64,000 nt of DNA, taken from Lentzea waywayandensis. Its GTDB lineage: Bacteria; Actinomycetota; Actinomycetes; Mycobacteriales; Pseudonocardiaceae. Shown here one piece after another: positions 7,814 to 29,024 of this stretch. The notes under the pieces are model-generated. The model was given only the letters and a program-made list of their open reading frames with translations. It had not been told where the DNA came from and did no database searches. The position numbers and the translations under genes were made by a program. The stretch's first letter is position 1. The number at the start of each line of letters is the position of its first letter. The stretch covers positions 806,001-870,000 of the forward strand of contig NZ_FOYL01000004.1 in the NCBI RefSeq assembly GCF_900115955.1, read 5' to 3'.

Positions 7814-9312
7814 GGGAGCGCGATCTGCGTGTGGAGGCGGTGAGGTACGGAGAGGCCGAAGCCTGGCCGATCCGGCACTCGGGCGGCCAGGCGGGCGTCG
7901 ACGAGCGACGTGGCCGGGTCGTCCAGGCGGAACTCGACGGCGAAGGCCAGGCTGTTCCTGATGAACGGCGGCACCTGGTCCCACGAGCGGGCGGTCACGA
8001 CGATGTGGCGTTGCGGGTCGAGCGGTTCGCCGGGGCCGTCAAGTAGCTGGTAGCGAACGACATCGTTGCCGAGGACCGCGGCGAGGGTGCGCAGCGTGGT
8101 GCTCTTGCCCGTGCCCGGTTTGCCGACGATGGCGCCGTGGCGGAGTTCGTCGGTGAACGCGGGGAACAGGACGTCGCGGCGTTGCTCCGACGGCTTGTCG
8201 AGCACGCCGATTCCGCCCGGTGGCAGCATTTCCAGTTGGAGGTCGACGTTGGTCCGGTGCAGTGGCGGCAGCACGAGGGCGTGCGCGGAAGGGCCGGAGC
8301 CGATCAGACCCCGCGGCAGGACCTCCGCCCACTCCTCCAGGTCGTACGGCGGGTTCGCGGACGGCCACTCGGGGAGCTGGAACGGCAGGGAGACCGGGAA
8401 GGCGTCGCCGGAACAGAGCACGTGGACGCCCAGCGCGCGGTCGGCGCGGAGGAGGGACTCCAGCACGTCCTGGTAGCCCGGGAACCGTTCGACCAGCACT
8501 TCGGCGCTGTCCACGCAGATCAGCAGGGCCGGGACGGGTTCGCCGGACCCTGCGAGCCGCCGGCGGCGGTCGAGTTCACCGGCGAGGCCGTCCTGGAACC
8601 GCTCGAACAGCTCGTTGTCGCTTTCCCCCGTCAGCGCGAACGACACGTGCGGCGCCGCGTCCAAGCCGTCGAACACACCGATGTTCTTCATGTCGAACAG
8701 ACCGAGGTTCAGGTCCGTCGACGAGTGCGTGACCATGAGGCCCAGCAATGCGGCGAGGAGCCTCTGCTCACGAACAGCGGCAGGACCGAGGTAGGTGCCG
8801 TTCGGCCCGTGGGCGCCGATGTCCAGGTACACCGGCCAGCCGCGGTCGTTGGAACCGATGGCGGCCTTGAGATCGTGGCGCTGGTGCTTGTTGCCCAGAT
8901 CGGGCTCGATGCCGTGCAACGCGAGGAAGTCCGTCGCCTCACCGTGCAGGTGCCGCCGCAACCGGTCCGGCAGAACCGCCCACTTCCGGGCCGTGACGAC
9001 GACCTGCACGCCCCGCGCCGGCCCGAACGCGGCGATCCACTCGACGGTTCTGTCGAGTTCCGGGTCGAGGTCGAAGCACAGCGCCCAGTCGTCCACCAGC
9101 AGCACCGCGCCCGACGGCGCCCCGCGCTCGAACCAGTCCAGCAGGCTGCGGCAGCCCGACTGGTCCGCCGGGTCGAAGGTCGCCGAGACGGGCAACGGGT
9201 CCGCACCCCGCCCGATCCGGTAGACGGCCATGTCCGGCGCGGCCGCGAGAGCCGCCGTCAGCCGCTCCCTGGTCGCCTGCCCTGGACCGACCACGGCGAA
9301 GTTCCTGATCAC
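7810..9312 (-). CDS. EccC-related protein with one degenerate module and one intact P-loop
   Basis: A 500-residue paralog of the downstream protein, starting at GTG 9312. Residues 1-135 repeat the small N-terminal domain (LLVDDW at 71-76, then VVVTARKW). Residues of about 150-300 are an EccC-like FtsK module with LGLMVTHSS and FDGLDAAPHVSF but no Walker A (YLGPAAVREQRLL in its place). The C-terminal part has a good Walker A, GKPGTGKST, at 397-405 (AIVGKPGTGKSTTLRTLAAVL). This looks like the third ATPase domain of EccC, shortened. The pair is co-translated (GTGA). It lies about 5 kb from the PE/PPE/EspG operon. ATP use, if any, would be confined to this protein. Confidence 0.7.
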   Translation of the reverse strand: MIRNFAVVGPGQATRERLTAALAAAPDMAVYRIGRGADPLPVSATFDPADQSGCRSLLDWFERGAPSGAVLLVDDWALCFDLDPELDRTVEWIAAFGPARGVQVVVTARKWAVLPDRLRRHLHGEATDFLALHGIEPDLGNKHQRHDLKAAIGSNDRGWPVYLDIGAHGPNGTYLGPAAVREQRLLAALLGLMVTHSSTDLNLGLFDMKNIGVFDGLDAAPHVSFALTGESDNELFERFQDGLAGELDRRRRLAGSGEPVPALLICVDSAEVLVERFPGYQDVLESLLRADRALGVHVLCSGDAFPVSLPFQLPEWPSANPPYDLEEWAEVLPRGLIGSGPSAHALVLPPLHRTNVDLQLEMLPPGGIGVLDKPSEQRRDVLFPAFTDELRHGAIVGKPGTGKSTTLRTLAAVLGNDVVRYQLLDGPGEPLDPQRHIVVTARSWDQVPPFIRNSLAFAVEFRLDDPATSLVDARLAARVPDRPGFGLSVPHRLHTQIALP

Positions 9313-9362
9313 GGCCCCAGATATACCAACAGCTCCGGGAACGCCGCTGCCCCTTCGCTAAT

Positions 9363-9749
9363 GTGGGCGACGTGCCAGCCAAAGCCGTCGACCCCGCCGA
9401 GATGCGCGCCGCCGTCCAGGCCGTGCTCCCGTGGCTGCGCGGCGAGGCTGACCAGCCAGAACGTCCCGTGCTCGCCGCCGCCGTCCGGCTGAGCCTGCGC
9501 ACCCTCGAGCAGATCGCGCCCGGCCGCAGCGTCGAGGTGCGCGTTCCCCCGTTCGCCGCCGTGCAGTGCGTCGAAGGGCCGCGCCACACCCGCGGCACGC
9601 CCCCGAACGTCGTGGAGACCGACCCCCGCACGTGGCTGGAGCTGGCCACCGGCGGCCTGGCGTGGGCCGACGCGCTGGACGGCGCTCGGGTCACCGCGTC
9701 GGGGACCCGAGCCGACATCTCACCTCTGCTGCCGGTCGTGAAGTTCTAG
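9363..9749 (+). CDS. Sterol-carrier-family (SCP2-like) protein
   Basis: A small soluble protein of 128 residues (125 if GTG 9372 is the start). It contains DPAEMRAAVQAVLPWL and a C-terminal stretch DPRTWLELATGGLAWADALDGARVTASGTRADISPLLPV. The pattern TWxxLATGxLxWxDAxxxGxVxASGxRADLSxLLPV is typical of the actinobacterial sterol-carrier-like family often found beside purF (in Mycobacterium tuberculosis, Rv0807 next to purF). Here purF is 5 kb away, separated by the DUF1023 and lipoprotein genes. A lipid-binding role is a family-level guess; no ligand is known. Confidence 0.75.
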   Translation: MGDVPAKAVDPAEMRAAVQAVLPWLRGEADQPERPVLAAAVRLSLRTLEQIAPGRSVEVRVPPFAAVQCVEGPRHTRGTPPNVVETDPRTWLELATGGLAWADALDGARVTASGTRADISPLLPVVKF

Positions 9750-17293: not shown

Positions 17294-18478
17294 TTGGACC
17301 GCGACCGCGAGTTCGGGGAATTCGTCGACGCACGTGCGCTCGTCATGCGCCGCACGGCATACCTGCTGTGCGGCGACTGGCACCGCGCCGAGGACATCGT
17401 CCAGACCGCGCTGATCAAGATGTACGTGGCCTGGTCGCGCGTGCGCAAGGACAGCGCCGACGCCTACGCCCGCAAAGTGCTGGTGCGCACGGCCATCGAT
17501 GAGGGCCGCCGCGGGTTCTTCCAGCGTGAACGGTCCGTTGACGCCGTGCCCGAACACCCGGTGACCGACGACTCGGCGGACTTCGACCTGCGGCTGGCAC
17601 TCGACGCGTTGCCGCCAGGGCAACGTGCTGTCGTCGTGCTGCGGTACTGGGAGGACCTCAGCGTCACCGAGACCGCCCGCATCCTCGGCAGGACGGAGGG
17701 CACGGTGAAGAGCCAGGCGGCCAAAGGGCTCGCGTCGTTGCGCGACCTGCTGGAGGACGAGCCGAAGCTGCGGATCCACCGCTCCGAGGTCATCCGCAGG
17801 GGCAAGACCAAGCTGGCCCGCAGGCGGACCGCCATCGCGACGGCGGTGGCCTTCGTGGTGCTGGCGGGTGTGGGCACGGCCGGCTATCTGGCGTTGCCAC
17901 GGCCGACCGGCACTGCGGGGATGTCCTCCGCGGACTCCGGGGTGAATCCAGCGGCCGACCGCAACGCCCAGCTCACCGAGTTGCTTCGGAAGAACTACCA
18001 GCTGCCGGCCGGCATCACCGCCGAGGACGTCCCCGAGATCAACGCCAAGGCGTTCGTGTTCTTCACTCGCACCAACACCAACACGCCCGACAACCTGCGG
18101 CGGGCGGTGGCCAGGCTGCGAGACGCACAGGGCGTCGGCGGTGTCGCGATCACGATCGGGCCCGCTCCCGCCGGCGGCCTCGGCACGTGCGAGGAGGACA
18201 GGTACTGCTGGCACGAGGAACGCAACGGCATCAAGCTCCGTACCACCCAGTTCCCGATCCCCGCCAAGAATCCCGGCGATCCTGAGCGGCTGCGGATGAC
18301 CGTCAGCGCCATCTACCCCGACGGCACCGTCGTCAGCGTTCACAGCGACAACATGGGCGCTTTCGACGACGGCACCTGGGGCGACCCCGGGATTGCCGGG
18401 AGCCCGCAGCGGCCGAACATCGTGCTCGACCGCGAGGAGCTGATAAAGATCGCGACATTGCCGGGCCTCACCTTCTAA
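17294..18478 (+). CDS. SigE-type sigma-70 factor fused to a membrane anchor and extracytoplasmic domain
   Basis: A 394-residue protein starting at TTG 17294, chosen because GAGGAGGGG ends four bases before it. Residues 8-75 are sigma region 2 (AYLLCGDWHRAEDIVQTALIKMYVAWSRV). Residues of about 96-155 are region 4 (LALDALPPGQRAVVVLRYWEDLSVTETARILGRTEGTVKSQ). A transmembrane helix follows at about 178-200 (RRTAIATAVAFVVLAGVGTA). The last 190 residues would lie outside the membrane and contain a Cys pair (GTCEEDRYC). SigE-family factors are usually soluble with a separate membrane protein, so here factor and membrane partner appear fused. Regulation is unknown. Confidence 0.85.
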   Translation: MDRDREFGEFVDARALVMRRTAYLLCGDWHRAEDIVQTALIKMYVAWSRVRKDSADAYARKVLVRTAIDEGRRGFFQRERSVDAVPEHPVTDDSADFDLRLALDALPPGQRAVVVLRYWEDLSVTETARILGRTEGTVKSQAAKGLASLRDLLEDEPKLRIHRSEVIRRGKTKLARRRTAIATAVAFVVLAGVGTAGYLALPRPTGTAGMSSADSGVNPAADRNAQLTELLRKNYQLPAGITAEDVPEINAKAFVFFTRTNTNTPDNLRRAVARLRDAQGVGGVAITIGPAPAGGLGTCEEDRYCWHEERNGIKLRTTQFPIPAKNPGDPERLRMTVSAIYPDGTVVSVHSDNMGAFDDGTWGDPGIAGSPQRPNIVLDREELIKIATLPGLTF

Positions 18479-24318: not shown

Positions 24319-25257
24319 ATGAGGAATCTCCTCCTGCTGGTCCTGACCATGATCGGCCTGGCCGCGGGTGTGCAGAGCGCACCCGCGGCCAGTGCCGCTC
24401 CCGCACCCATGACGCCGTGGTCGAGGTGCCAGAACGGGCAGCCCGCCACGTACACCGCGACCAAGTGGGTGCACGGCTCGACGTACCTGACGGCCGCGCC
24501 CATCGCGCTCGAACCGGGTGACGTCGTCCACCTCAGCGCCACTGGCACGATCAACACCGGTGGCTGGTCCGGCAGCCACGGCCCGGCCGGCTCGAACACG
24601 ATCACCTGGTTCGGCAGCTGGCCGCACCAGGGCGGCCGCGCGTACTCCCTCTACGGGCGATTCGCCTCCAACGGCGTCAAGTTCCTGGCCGCCAACACGG
24701 GCTGCACGGACCCGGCCGGGTACTACGCCGGCGGCCACGACCGCATCGACCTCGGCATCAACGACGAGAACCTGTCCGACAACACCGGCGGCTTCACCGT
24801 CACCATGCGCGTCTACCGCAACCTGGTGAAGGACGGCGGCTTCGAACGGCAGCCGAACCGCGGCGTCTCCGCACCGTGGAACGTCGAGGGCCCTGACGGC
24901 AAGGGCGTCGACATCCGCCTCGGCTACGCCAACTCCGGCGGCAACAACGCGTTCATCCGCACCGGTTCCCGCAACTGGAACGCGCTCACCCAGAACGTCT
25001 CGCTGAAGCCGTACACCTGGTACCGGATGCGGGTCTTCCTGCGCACCAGCCCGGTGTTCGGCGCGGGCTACCTCGGTGTGCGCGGCGCGTTCAACGGTCT
25101 GGTCGAGCGGCCGTACGGCGTCGTGAACGGCTACCAGGAACACACCATCGACTTCAGCACCGGCGAGAACGGCACGGTGACGGTCTTCCTCGGCTACTGG
25201 GCTCCCGGCACGGACTCATGGGTCCAAATGGATGATTTCGCGATCTATCCGGCCTGA
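24319..25257 (+). CDS. Secreted protein with two beta-sandwich, lectin/CBM-like domains
   Basis: A 312-residue protein. Signal peptide MRNLLLLVLTMIGLAAGVQS leads to APAASAAPAP. Residues of about 40-170 resemble a bacterial lectin-type jelly roll (ALEPGDVVHLSATGTINTGG ... RIDLGINDENLSDNTGGFTV). Residues of about 175-312 resemble a CBM4/9-type carbohydrate-binding module (LVKDGGFERQPNRGVSAPWNVEG ... VSLKPYTWYRMRVFLRT). No catalytic domain is seen, so it probably binds a glycan outside the cell. It is followed by a perfect hairpin and then the large sigma-receptor gene in the same direction. Domain calls are by pattern only. Confidence 0.65.
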   Translation: MRNLLLLVLTMIGLAAGVQSAPAASAAPAPMTPWSRCQNGQPATYTATKWVHGSTYLTAAPIALEPGDVVHLSATGTINTGGWSGSHGPAGSNTITWFGSWPHQGGRAYSLYGRFASNGVKFLAANTGCTDPAGYYAGGHDRIDLGINDENLSDNTGGFTVTMRVYRNLVKDGGFERQPNRGVSAPWNVEGPDGKGVDIRLGYANSGGNNAFIRTGSRNWNALTQNVSLKPYTWYRMRVFLRTSPVFGAGYLGVRGAFNGLVERPYGVVNGYQEHTIDFSTGENGTVTVFLGYWAPGTDSWVQMDDFAIYPA

Positions 25258-25267
25258 TCAGAGCTCT

Positions 25268-25295
25268 GCGCCCTGGGCCACCCGGCCCAGGGCGC
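25268..25295 (+). terminator. Perfect 12-bp stem terminator
   Basis: GCGCCCTGGGCC (25268-25279), loop ACCC, GGCCCAGGGCGC (25284-25295). It lies 11 bp after the lectin-like gene stop and 28 bp before the preferred start of the sigma-receptor gene. There is no U tract, as is usual in this group. It argues that the next gene has its own start of translation downstream of it, and perhaps read-through control. Confidence 0.7.
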
Positions 25296-25322
25296 GTAAT
25301 GCCGCCACCACAGGGAGAGATG

Positions 25323-28300
25323 GTGTCGATGATGGCCGACGAGGATCTGGTCAACCGGCTCCGGGCAGACGAGGGCGCTGCCCGGCATGAGCTGTTCGTG
25401 CGGTGCCAGGCCAAACTGCGCCCGTACTTCCGCCACCGCCTGCGCGGCCAGCACCACCACGACGTCGACGACCTCGTGAGCGAGGTCCTCGTCCGTGCGC
25501 TGGAAGGGATTCGCCAGGGGCACGAGCCGAAAGTGCTCGACGCGTGGCTGACCGGTATCGCGTGGAATCTGCTCAAGGACCGCTACGAGGAGTTCGACCG
25601 GCGCGACGACCGCGACGTGCCGGACCTCGCGCACGACGTGGACATCGCCGAGCTGATGGGCCGCACCGAGCTGCTGACCGTGCTGACGGCGGCGCTCGAC
25701 GGCCTGAAACCCGCGCTGCGCGACGTGATGACCGCGCACGTGCGGCTCACGTTGCAACGGGACCACCTGGTGGTCGGTGGTGAGCTGGCCACCGCGCTGG
25801 ACATCCCGAGGAGCCAGGCCGACCGGCAGTTGAAACGTGCTCGCGAGGCCACCTACGAAGCCATCGCCTCCTACGTGCTGACCCGCGTAGGCCGCAGGCA
25901 CTGCACCGCACTGGACGCGCTGGCCACCGGCACGTTCGACCCGAAGACGTCCGCCGCCGTGATCAAGCACGCGACGGGGTGCACGGCCTGCGAGACGCAT
26001 CTGAAGGAAGCTCGTGACTTCAGCCGCTGGGCGCTCGGTCCCGGCCTGGTGGGACTGGTCGACGACGAGGAGAACAAGCGCACGCTCGTCGCCTTCTTCA
26101 GCCGTGGCAGCGATTTCGCGGTGGGACGGACGAGCGTGCTCGGCACCATCACGACTCGCGTCGCGGCCGTGCCCGGCGTGGACACGGTCGTGCGGCTGGC
26201 GCAGGAGAACCCCGTCGTGGCCAGGGTGGTGGCCGGCGGCGTCGGACTGGTGGCGGCGGCGGTGATCGCGCTGCTCGCGGCGAGCGACGACACCCCGCGT
26301 GACGAGATCGCCCTGCCCGCGCCGACCGGAACCTCCTCCCGCACAACGACTTCCACCACCGGTCCAGCCGTCCTGACTTCGAGGACGAGCGGGCCGGCCG
26401 CGCCTGCCACGACCGCTCCGCCGGGCGCGCCACTCGTCGCCGTCACCACCGCGGTGGCGAAGACGCCGACGTCCACGCGCACGACCGAGGCGGAGCCGAA
26501 CCCCGGTTCCACCACGACTTCCGCGGCCTCGCCGCCTCCTCCTCCTCCTCCTCCTCCGCCACCTCCGCCTCCGCCCGCCAAGTGGGCGTTCGCGCGGATC
26601 GACCAGAACACCGCGCCGATCGGTCAGGAGACCGCCGTCCAGCCCGCGTGGCAGTGGGGCACGACGAGCTCCGTCACCGTGGTCCGCGAGAGCACAGGCG
26701 TGTACCGGGTGCGCATGCCCGGAGCGGCCTCGCCGTCCGCGCTCGCGCACGTCACGGTCGCGTACTACCAGCTGCCGAACCCGGTCGGCTGCGTCGTCCG
26801 GGACAACCGTTCCGAGGGCGCGGACCAGGTGGTGCTGGTGGCGTGCCACGAACGCGCTGCCGCACAGGACCTGCGCTTCACGGTCCTGCTCGCCGAACCG
26901 GACGGCCGGTCCGTCGTCCGGCCCGGCGACCAGGTCCGCGTGCTGGGGCCGGGCCGCTACGAGGCCGACGTCGCAGGACCGTTGCGGGGCAACGGCTACG
27001 CGCAGATCACCCCGTACTCCCCTGAGCACGTCCGCTGTCAGCCGGGCGGCGTCAGGGCCACCGCGACCGGCGTGACGATCGGCGTGCACTGCACGGGGGA
27101 GAGCCGGTTCGCCCTGACGTACGCGGAGAACGGGCCGCTGGCCGGCTCGGTCGGCGCGTACGCCCAGACCGCCGGCACCTCCACGGATCTGCGCATCGAC
27201 CCGGCCAGGTCGTACAACAGCACGGGCGGCGCGATGACGTTGCAGCGCTGGGGTCCCGGCCAGTACGTCGTGCTGATGAAGGGCGTCGGGATGCAGGGTG
27301 GCACGGTGCAGGCCGGCGCCACCGAGACCGGCTACTGCCACGCCATGAACTGGTCGTCCTTTCCCGCGCCGATCAACGACGTGTGGGTGACCGTGCAGTG
27401 CGTGAACGATGCCGGGACGGTCGCCGATCTGCCGTTCGGCGTGGCGGTGCTGCGTCCTCCGCTCGCTCCCGGCGAACAGGTGGGACCGTTGCGGCCCAAG
27501 GATCCCGGCGTGCACGGCCCCGGCGACCAATGGGGCTACGTGCAGGTGCAGTGGCCGTCCACGCCAGTCGGCGTGCCGACGCAGATGCATCCGTACTGGC
27601 AGTGGTCCACGTGGGCGGGCAGGCTCGGCGACAACGACTCGTGGTGGTCGCGCAAGGTCACCGTGACCAGGGAGGGCATCGGCCGCTACCTGGTGCGGAT
27701 GCCGGGAATTGGCTCCTCCCAGGCGGTTCCGCACGTCACCGCGTACTCGCCCAACGCCGACGGCTGCGTCGTGCGCGACCACCGCGTCGACGGGATCGAC
27801 GGCCTGGTCGGCGTCAACTGCTACGGCGTCACCGCGCTGCCGAAGGACGTGCCGTTCCACCTGTTCCTCGGCGTGCCGAAGTCGGGTTCGGTGACGTCGG
27901 ACCAGGCGACGAGGACCGGCACCGGCACGTACGAGGTGACGGTTCCGGGAGCGGAGGCGGGTTTCGCGAAGGTGACCCCGCTCGGCGACGGCCCGGCGCG
28001 ATGCGGTCACGACGGTGGTGTCGCGACCGGTGAGCAGGTCCGGTTCCGGGTGATCTGCGACCGCGACACCCGCTGGCGGCTCGGCCACGTCCAGGGCACC
28101 GGCCTGCACCAGGACACCTCCGCGCCCGCCGCGTACCTGACGGCCACCGGTGCCGGGCAGGTCGTCCGCTCGTTCGGCGAGGTGCCCGAGATCGTCCGCA
28201 CCTCGGCAGGGCGGTACCAGGTGAAGTACCGGACGCTCGGCAATCCTGTCGTCTGGCCGGCGGACGCCGTGCAGGTGACGACGCTCGGGTCGGCGCGGAC

Positions 28301-28430
28301 GTGCACGGCGGTCGGGTTGAACTCGTACAGCGCGCCCGCTCGCAACGTCTGGCTGAACGTGCACTGCTTCGACCAGGCGGGACTTCCGGCGGACTCGGAC
28401 TTCGGGGTGGCCTACGTGCGCAGACCCTGA
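25323..28430 (+). CDS. Sigma-70 factor / zinc-finger anti-sigma / transmembrane / ectodomain fusion
   Basis: A protein of about 1035 residues. Sigma region 2 lies at about 20-95 (DVDDLVSEVLVRALEGI ... WLTGIAWNLLKDRY) and region 4 at about 110-185 (LKPALRDVMTAHVRL ... LDIPRSQADRQLKRARE). Next comes a zinc anti-sigma motif, H216-x3-C220-x2-C223, with H193/C194 upstream. A membrane helix spans about 302-320. A Thr/Ser/Pro linker with 15 consecutive prolines (404-418) leads to an ectodomain of about 600 residues. The ectodomain is built of some six modules of about 100 residues, each with a GxYxV strand and paired cysteines. GTG 25323 is chosen because GGGAG (25313-25317) lies five bases before it; ATG 25329 is an alternative. 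No separate anti-sigma gene is adjacent. Confidence 0.85.
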   Translation: MSMMADEDLVNRLRADEGAARHELFVRCQAKLRPYFRHRLRGQHHHDVDDLVSEVLVRALEGIRQGHEPKVLDAWLTGIAWNLLKDRYEEFDRRDDRDVPDLAHDVDIAELMGRTELLTVLTAALDGLKPALRDVMTAHVRLTLQRDHLVVGGELATALDIPRSQADRQLKRAREATYEAIASYVLTRVGRRHCTALDALATGTFDPKTSAAVIKHATGCTACETHLKEARDFSRWALGPGLVGLVDDEENKRTLVAFFSRGSDFAVGRTSVLGTITTRVAAVPGVDTVVRLAQENPVVARVVAGGVGLVAAAVIALLAASDDTPRDEIALPAPTGTSSRTTTSTTGPAVLTSRTSGPAAPATTAPPGAPLVAVTTAVAKTPTSTRTTEAEPNPGSTTTSAASPPPPPPPPPPPPPPPAKWAFARIDQNTAPIGQETAVQPAWQWGTTSSVTVVRESTGVYRVRMPGAASPSALAHVTVAYYQLPNPVGCVVRDNRSEGADQVVLVACHERAAAQDLRFTVLLAEPDGRSVVRPGDQVRVLGPGRYEADVAGPLRGNGYAQITPYSPEHVRCQPGGVRATATGVTIGVHCTGESRFALTYAENGPLAGSVGAYAQTAGTSTDLRIDPARSYNSTGGAMTLQRWGPGQYVVLMKGVGMQGGTVQAGATETGYCHAMNWSSFPAPINDVWVTVQCVNDAGTVADLPFGVAVLRPPLAPGEQVGPLRPKDPGVHGPGDQWGYVQVQWPSTPVGVPTQMHPYWQWSTWAGRLGDNDSWWSRKVTVTREGIGRYLVRMPGIGSSQAVPHVTAYSPNADGCVVRDHRVDGIDGLVGVNCYGVTALPKDVPFHLFLGVPKSGSVTSDQATRTGTGTYEVTVPGAEAGFAKVTPLGDGPARCGHDGGVATGEQVRFRVICDRDTRWRLGHVQGTGLHQDTSAPAAYLTATGAGQVVRSFGEVPEIVRTSAGRYQVKYRTLGNPVVWPADAVQVTTLGSARTCTAVGLNSYSAPARNVWLNVHCFDQAGLPADSDFGVAYVRRP

Positions 28431-28481: not shown

Positions 28482-29024
28482 TCAGTACCTCAGCAGGTAG
28501 GACCACGACTGGGCCGTGTCGTGCCGGCCGCCGGCCGCGCACCGGCCGTTGGGGCCGCCGGTGGGGGTGAAGAAGAGCACGCTGCAGTTCGCGCACGAAC
28601 GCCAGCCGCGCTGGTGCCGCTCGCTCGGGAACTGCGGCTCGAAGTCCACCAGGTAGTACCAGGACTTGCCGATGGCGTAGCTGGAGATCCGGTGTCCGTT
28701 GAGGTCGCCGGCGCAGCGCCCCGCCGTGGCGCCGGACCACCACAGGCACTGGCAGGTCGCGCACGACCGCCAGTCGTTCTGTCCGGAGCCGCCGTCGGAC
28801 TGCACCTTCACCCGGTAGACGAAGCTGCCGTCCTTCGTGTGGTGGCCACCGGCCGGACACGGGATCACGTACGGCGTGTTCGGCCACCACAGCGACTGGC
28901 ACTTGGCGCAGGCGGTCCAGCCCGCCTGCGCCGCGAGAGCGGTACCCGGTGTGGCGAGCTGGGTGGCGGCGGTGGCCACGGCGAGCGTGGCCGCCGCACC
29001 GATGGCCTGTCGTCGGTTGATCAT
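28482..29024 (-). CDS. Tat-exported protein with three tandem CxxC...C...H modules
   Basis: A 180-residue protein. MINRRQAIGAAATLAVATAA is a twin-arginine signal ending near ALAA. The mature part is three repeats of about 45 residues: W36-C39xxC42-WW-C56-GGHH, W85-C88xxC91-WW-C104-NGH111, W141-C144xxC147-FF-C162-GGRH168. Each ends in an aromatic strand such as SWYYLV or SWSYLL. The Cys/His spacing suggests a small zinc-binding or disulfide-stabilised fold, and the paired aromatics suggest a ligand or glycan contact. I do not recognise the family name. It converges on the sigma-receptor gene. Confidence 0.75.
   Translation of the reverse strand: MINRRQAIGAAATLAVATAATQLATPGTALAAQAGWTACAKCQSLWWPNTPYVIPCPAGGHHTKDGSFVYRVKVQSDGGSGQNDWRSCATCQCLWWSGATAGRCAGDLNGHRISSYAIGKSWYYLVDFEPQFPSERHQRGWRSCANCSVLFFTPTGGPNGRCAAGGRHDTAQSWSYLLRY

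Follow-up and report, generated by a model that had tools for sequence, protein, structure and literature searches.

A transmembrane sigma factor in a single polypeptide

The window analysed here, a stretch of 64,000 nucleotides from the 10.15 Mb genome of Lentzea waywayandensis, contains a gene whose single product joins sigma region 2 and a probable region 4 to a zinc anti-sigma (ZAS)-like domain, one membrane helix, a stalk and a large, presumably extracellular part (Table 1). This layout had been read from the letters alone in an original prediction, and the sigma regions, the zinc motif, the helix, the 15 prolines and the cysteine pairs lie where that prediction placed them; residues are counted here from the ATG at 25320, which makes each number one higher than in the earlier scheme. 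The open frame spans 25299-28430 on the forward strand, and the coding call, 25320-28430, yields 1036 residues. ATG 25320 is likely to be the start codon because in the Lentzea albidocapillata ortholog no more than two codons of open frame precede the matching ATG. L. albidocapillata subsp. violacea is the closest named relative found, its protein matching residues 1-1035 with 84% identity in the best segment, and the ratio of nonsynonymous to synonymous substitution rates (Ka/Ks) between the two genes is 0.25 overall and 0.16-0.32 across the sigma, zinc and ectodomain parts.

Homologs with the same order, for which the original prediction had suggested a search, are present: the sequence of sigma, ZAS and helix followed by two ectodomain units occurs in seven genomes of the family (G000, which is the window's own, G345, G526, G540, G556, G424 and G536), the six other proteins being 40-87% identical to the window protein. 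The receptor half does occur as a separate gene in relatives, as would be expected if a sequencing or assembly error had fused separate genes, the weakness the original prediction had itself named; the recurrence of the fusion in seven genomes refutes such an artefact, to which we give practically no weight. The window gene encodes a genuine transmembrane sigma factor in one polypeptide, conserved across these genomes.

Sigma region 2 passes the Pfam threshold for Sigma70_r2 (29.9 bits, cut-off 24) and stays under that of TIGR02937 (36.1 bits, cut-off 42.9), and region 4, for which Pfam gave no match in the window protein, was detected by profile comparison alone. When a model of the core was compared with known structures, most of the top matches were sigma factors, several of them solved with an anti-sigma factor (RseA, MucA, RsbN, RsiW). 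The sigma fold and the membrane helix on which the original prediction depended are thus both supported, the one for sigma2 by Pfam and structure comparison and the other by the single hydropathy peak. The zinc motif, C195-x21-H217-x3-C221-x2-C224 with HATGCTAC at 217-224, contains the Hx3Cx2C signature, spanning helices 2-3, that is used for class I zinc anti-sigma (ASDI/ZAS) domains (PMC7406223), and its four ligands are invariant in all six rows of alignment A3. No match to zf-HC2 (PF13490) was found in the window protein by Pfam at E 1. Homology in this region comes from profiles: an alignment of the window protein, L002 and the Embleya protein (A4) matches a second alignment (A5), made up of five fusions from the window's own genome and one from Streptomyces, over residues 5-235, with the zinc ligands in register (hhalign, E = 1.9e-20, probability 99.3).

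These five fusions stem from a survey of the 90 Sigma70_r2 matches in the genome, 17 of which, the window gene not counted, fall within open frames at least 426 codons long. Sixteen of the 17 were fetched, and five proved to join sigma, Hx3Cx2C and a membrane helix to other extracellular parts, so that the genome holds at least five further proteins of this kind: one ends in CAP (L053), one in a glycosyl hydrolase core (L056) and three in parts that have no Pfam name (L054, L057 and L062, the three in which zf-HC2 is matched). In L056 (1604-3628, +) the outside core belongs to PF11790 (E 3.5e-53), making this protein a possible enzyme-sensor sigma factor. A sigma-ZAS-membrane-CAP protein resembling L053 is encoded on a Streptomyces anulatus plasmid (L006, 3869-5482, +). 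The window itself holds a second sigma-membrane fusion at 17294-18478 (+), of the SigE family (TIGR02983, 160.2 bits against 141.55), in which the sigma part is followed by a hydrophobic stretch and ~180 more residues and in which no Hx3Cx2C motif was seen by eye.

Table 1. Positions in the window of the sigma factor gene, the parts of its product and the elements upstream of it.
Feature	Position	Strand	Remarks
Partner protein; C-terminal half like the EndoMA1 D-arabinan-binding domain	24319..25257	+	signal-peptide-like start (by eye)
GC-rich hairpin of 13 bp separating the partner and sigma genes	25267..25296	+	terminator- or attenuator-like; z -2.87
Whole gene, 1036 aa: sigma2-sigma4-ZAS-membrane helix-stalk-2x(A-B-C) ectodomain	25320..28430	+	
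Sigma region 2, residues 6-98	25335..25613	+	Pfam Sigma70_r2
Sigma region 4, residues about 109-190	25644..25889	+	profile alignment with related fusions; helices in low-confidence model
ZAS-like domain with C195, H217, C221 and C224, residues about 191-245	25890..26054	+	ligands invariant in A3; aligned to zf-HC2-bearing paralogs
Juxtamembrane segment with W-ALGPGL-G--DDE, residues 236-298	26025..26213	+	kept in orthologs, partly in sigma-less relatives
Single membrane helix, residues about 299-322	26214..26285	+	sole hydropathy peak of the protein (2.54)
Thr/Pro stalk, residues 323-421; 15 Pro at 26532-26576	26286..26582	+	
Ectodomain unit copy 1, modules A-B-C; Cys 491/509, 573/591, 673/694	26583..27533	+	
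Ectodomain unit copy 2, modules A-B-C; Cys 816/834, 895/913, 995/1016	27534..28427	+	

The ectodomain unit and its spread

Beyond the helix, the stalk differs in length among the orthologs, and its run of 15 prolines (residues 405-419) is missing in the closest one. The part that follows had been described as six repeated beta modules with paired cysteines. The six pairs stand, formed by 12 cysteines with spans of 19, 19 and 22 residues that are then repeated as 19, 19 and 22; the six equal repeats do not. Residues 421-742 and 743-1036 match each other (BLASTP E = 2e-35, 34% identity), with an alignment score of 342 where the best of 500 shuffles reached 75, and because the halves align and the cysteine spacing recurs, the ectodomain is two copies of a three-module unit, A-B-C. 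The six cysteines of the unit, which probably form disulphides, are invariant across 11 aligned units from ten proteins. A predicted model of copy 2, built from four sequences, is almost all beta with modest confidence (predicted local distance difference test, pLDDT, 58.8), and its comparison with the PDB gave no match of weight. A Pfam scan of the ectodomain at E 1 returned no family; the unit looks like a new part of the system, and it may be a carbohydrate-binding domain of another, unrecognised kind. In the titles and abstract openings of the literature searched, neither this ectodomain and its spread over different chassis nor the relatives without sigma and the partner gene, both discussed below, are described.

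Counting the window's own genome, the ectodomain is present in 3 of 30 family genomes, in 6 of 24 genus genomes and, with profile A2, in 4 of 296 phylum genomes; profile A9 gives a rough count of 42 among 346 family genomes. A single unit follows sigma, ZAS and helix in G509, Embleya and G006, the sigma-like part of G006 being reached by one core profile (E 6.5e-8) and weakly by hhalign (probability 63). Proteins made of ZAS, helix and one unit, with no sigma part, occur in four genomes that belong to the same genus as the window (L069-L072); they retain the zinc and juxtamembrane homology (no score among 500 shuffles reaches that of either) and at most a faint remnant of sigma4, and no sigma gene was found near them within the regions fetched. 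In G503 the start of the sigma part passes directly into the helix, with a sigma2 match that none of 500 shuffles reaches.

Other carriers are built differently. At ten loci (L119, L120, L121, L123, L124, L126, L127, L129, L130 and L134), and at a further partial one (L144), a long cytoplasmic part and a membrane helix precede the unit. Scans of four of the ten gave AAA_16/NACHT/STAND matches below the curated cut-offs, the remainder being grouped by eye, and by sequence the type would be a nucleoside triphosphatase (NTPase)-like receptor, P-loop and STAND-like, with an outside sensor. A Nonomuraea gerenzanensis protein (L003, 1583-5050, +) combines a zinc-protease-like HELGHSLGLDHGG motif and sub-threshold Pfam matches with a unit at its C-terminus, L122 encodes a many-helix protein, and the rest, to which the secreted unit of Streptomyces (L005) belongs, are secreted-looking or short-tailed single units, some of them partial. 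Among the ectodomain proteins with short tails (L074, L106, L133 and L141), the first three have H-(I/V/F)-H stretches close to the N-terminus, which we take to be of the kind found in conflict-related proteins.

A tree of 55 units unites the NTPase-like forms in a single clade (100/99), with the sigma forms of Embleya and G509 as its sister group; the four sigma-less forms cluster with G006 (100/99), and G503 is nested within copy 1 of the sigma forms. The separate positions of the sigma-less group and of G503 imply at least two changes between presence and absence of sigma. G503 has clearly lost most of its sigma part, of which a piece of sigma2 remains; for the four sigma-less forms loss is the likelier direction, a verdict that depends on where the tree is rooted. 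The two copies carried by the double forms fall into separate groups, and the duplication is therefore older than the seven genomes, the deeper fork among the copies being weakly supported (85/50).

The relatives with little or no sigma bring up the reading that the sigma part is degenerate and no longer transcribes, the protein having become a wall-anchored adhesin or receptor heading towards the sigma-less form. The modest scores of the window protein would fit, as would those below cut-off in G526 and G509, the part of G006 that Pfam does not see, the four sigma-less genomes of the genus and the nearly sigma-free G503. However, sigma2 exceeds the Pfam cut-off in G556, G424 and G536 as it does in the window, and G536 passes TIGR02937 as well (43.8 against 42.9). 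The two sigma parts, with Ka/Ks values of 0.32 and 0.19 against L. albidocapillata, resemble the remainder of the gene, and the RALEG, W-GIA-N and LVVG-ELA blocks are kept in all seven double-unit genomes. We therefore consider degeneration improbable.

The variety of carriers also invites a broader reading, which we put forward as speculation. A-B-C might be a mobile extracellular sensor cassette of Actinobacteria that has come to feed two or more unrelated outputs in the cytoplasm, ECF (extracytoplasmic function) sigma factors and P-loop (STAND-like) NTPases, and is also secreted free. The sigma-less zinc receptor would have outlived its own sigma and now act as an anti-sigma factor in trans, a one-protein system dissolving into two, and the sigma form with its D-arabinan-binding-like partner would monitor arabinan-type wall glycans. 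Independently of this reading, one unit sits on sigma factors, NTPases and secreted proteins, so the ligand of an easily handled secreted form would predict the signal of the more difficult membrane forms, and the sigma-less relatives are a natural test case for the interconversion of fused and split sigma/anti-sigma systems.

Partner gene and proposed mechanism

The gene immediately upstream encodes the partner, whose residues 167-309 align at E = 2.3e-12 with the binding domain of EndoMA1, an endo-D-arabinanase (8ic1). Nine residues around a bound D-arabinan tetrasaccharide have been named for that chain (PMC10509167), and the partner keeps six of them, including all five of subsite A, with the other three changed. 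It adjoins the sigma gene in three of the seven double forms (the window, G345 and G424), whereas the remaining four have no such neighbour; the other flank of G424 matches that of G556, and G536 has the flank of the window with no partner in it. Co-transcription of the two genes is uncertain, because a strong hairpin stands between them and hairpins also lie upstream of the sigma gene in all three of the other genomes folded (G345, G424 and G536). On the far side of the sigma gene, at 28482-29024 (-), is a protein with repeated C-x2-C ... G-G-x-H blocks, no Pfam family above cut-off and a start that is presumably twin-arginine-like; it is conserved in L002 at 9109-9651.

With a probability of roughly two in three, we read the window protein as a membrane-tethered, self-inhibited ECF sigma factor, a one-protein signalling system freed by cleavage after sensing of the envelope or of a glycan. 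This rests on the order kept in seven genomes, the Ka/Ks values, the profile alignment of A4 with A5, the structural matches of the sigma part, the five further fusions of the genome and the published analogues SCO4117 and IutY. Inhibition in cis, the orientation across the membrane, cleavage and the glycan signal are parts that we infer. In the resting state, sigma2 and sigma4 would be clamped by the protein's own zinc domain (191-245) together with the juxtamembrane segment, the single helix would keep the protein at the membrane, and the stalk would extend the two copies of the three-module ectodomain into the cell wall. A change outside, most likely that a glycan of the envelope or the environment is bound or lost, would expose the stalk to a site-1 protease, after which a site-2 protease would cut the helix; once the zinc domain is trimmed or unfolded, sigma would be free to load RNA polymerase.

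The link to glycans is drawn because a partner with six of nine D-arabinan contacts adjoins the sigma gene in G345 and G424. A narrower version, compatible with the cleavage mechanism, makes the signal D-arabinan or arabinogalactan that comes from the wall of the bacterium itself or of a neighbour and is presented by the secreted partner. The strength of the EndoMA1 match, the retained subsite A and an adjacency kept in two differing genome contexts point this way; the absence of that adjacency in four of the seven genomes and the three altered contacts weigh against it, and the EndoMA1 domain is itself termed a putative carbohydrate-binding module by its authors, with caution on packing effects (PMC10509167). 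We hold this version as a doubtful one.

Activation might also need no cut at all, if a ligand altered the fold of the zinc and juxtamembrane parts and the tethered sigma factor transcribed at the membrane. The juxtamembrane block is conserved, and a conformational change is one option raised for ECF52 (PMC5826349); yet RNA polymerase would have to reach membrane-near promoters, and IutY, the best studied fused case, is activated by proteolysis (PMC8999054). Such activation without cleavage seems to us rather unlikely.

Comparison with known systems

The cytoplasmic half resembles familiar pairs. SigW-RsiW, SigE-ChrR and sigmaE-RseA have a similar sigma2 fold, and the zinc-motif anti-sigma domains RsiW and ChrR fall into one class with the window motif (PMC7406223), although each of these systems consists of two proteins and that of the window of one. 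Sigma and a membrane anti-sigma part are united in IutY of Pseudomonas putida (ECF243), which is activated by Prc and RseP (PMC8999054). IutY differs in serving iron cell-surface signalling in a Gram-negative host. Its anti-sigma part is of the FecR type rather than the zinc type.

The original prediction had also taken the arrangement for a little-described system, which is not supported: fusions of sigma, ZAS and membrane parts are already published as ECF48, ECF52 and ECF53, with SCO4117 of Streptomyces coelicolor among them. In ECF48 and ECF53, as in the window protein, sigma is joined to a zinc-finger and membrane part, and proteolytic activation is expected (PMC8999054). Some members of ECF52 and ECF53 have predicted glycosyl hydrolase or carbohydrate-binding domains (PMC10766802), whereas the window protein has no hydrolase domain (no Pfam or NCBIfam match to a glycosyl hydrolase or carbohydrate-binding domain) and its own-genome relative L056 has one.

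The closest likeness is to ECF52, whose members combine sigma, a zinc finger, membrane helices and a proline-rich extension with a carbohydrate-binding domain (PMC5826349), and for which release by proteolysis has been proposed (PMC5826349; PMC8999054). In SCO4117 a strain with only the sigma domain was less affected than the knockout (PMC5826349). Little is known of what one-protein membrane sigma factors respond to, and for SCO4117 these accounts name neither a signal nor a protease. The window protein has its parts in the order of the ECF52 proteins: sigma2 and a probable sigma4, then a zinc finger, a membrane helix, a proline-rich stretch and a part outside the membrane. For SCO4117 this last part is reported to carry the carbohydrate-binding module NPCBM (smart00776), for which the Pfam scan of the window ectodomain at E 1 gave no match, and here it is the unnamed A-B-C unit in two copies. 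By analogy, we expect the window protein, for which no place inside ECF52 is claimed, to work as the ECF52 proteins do.
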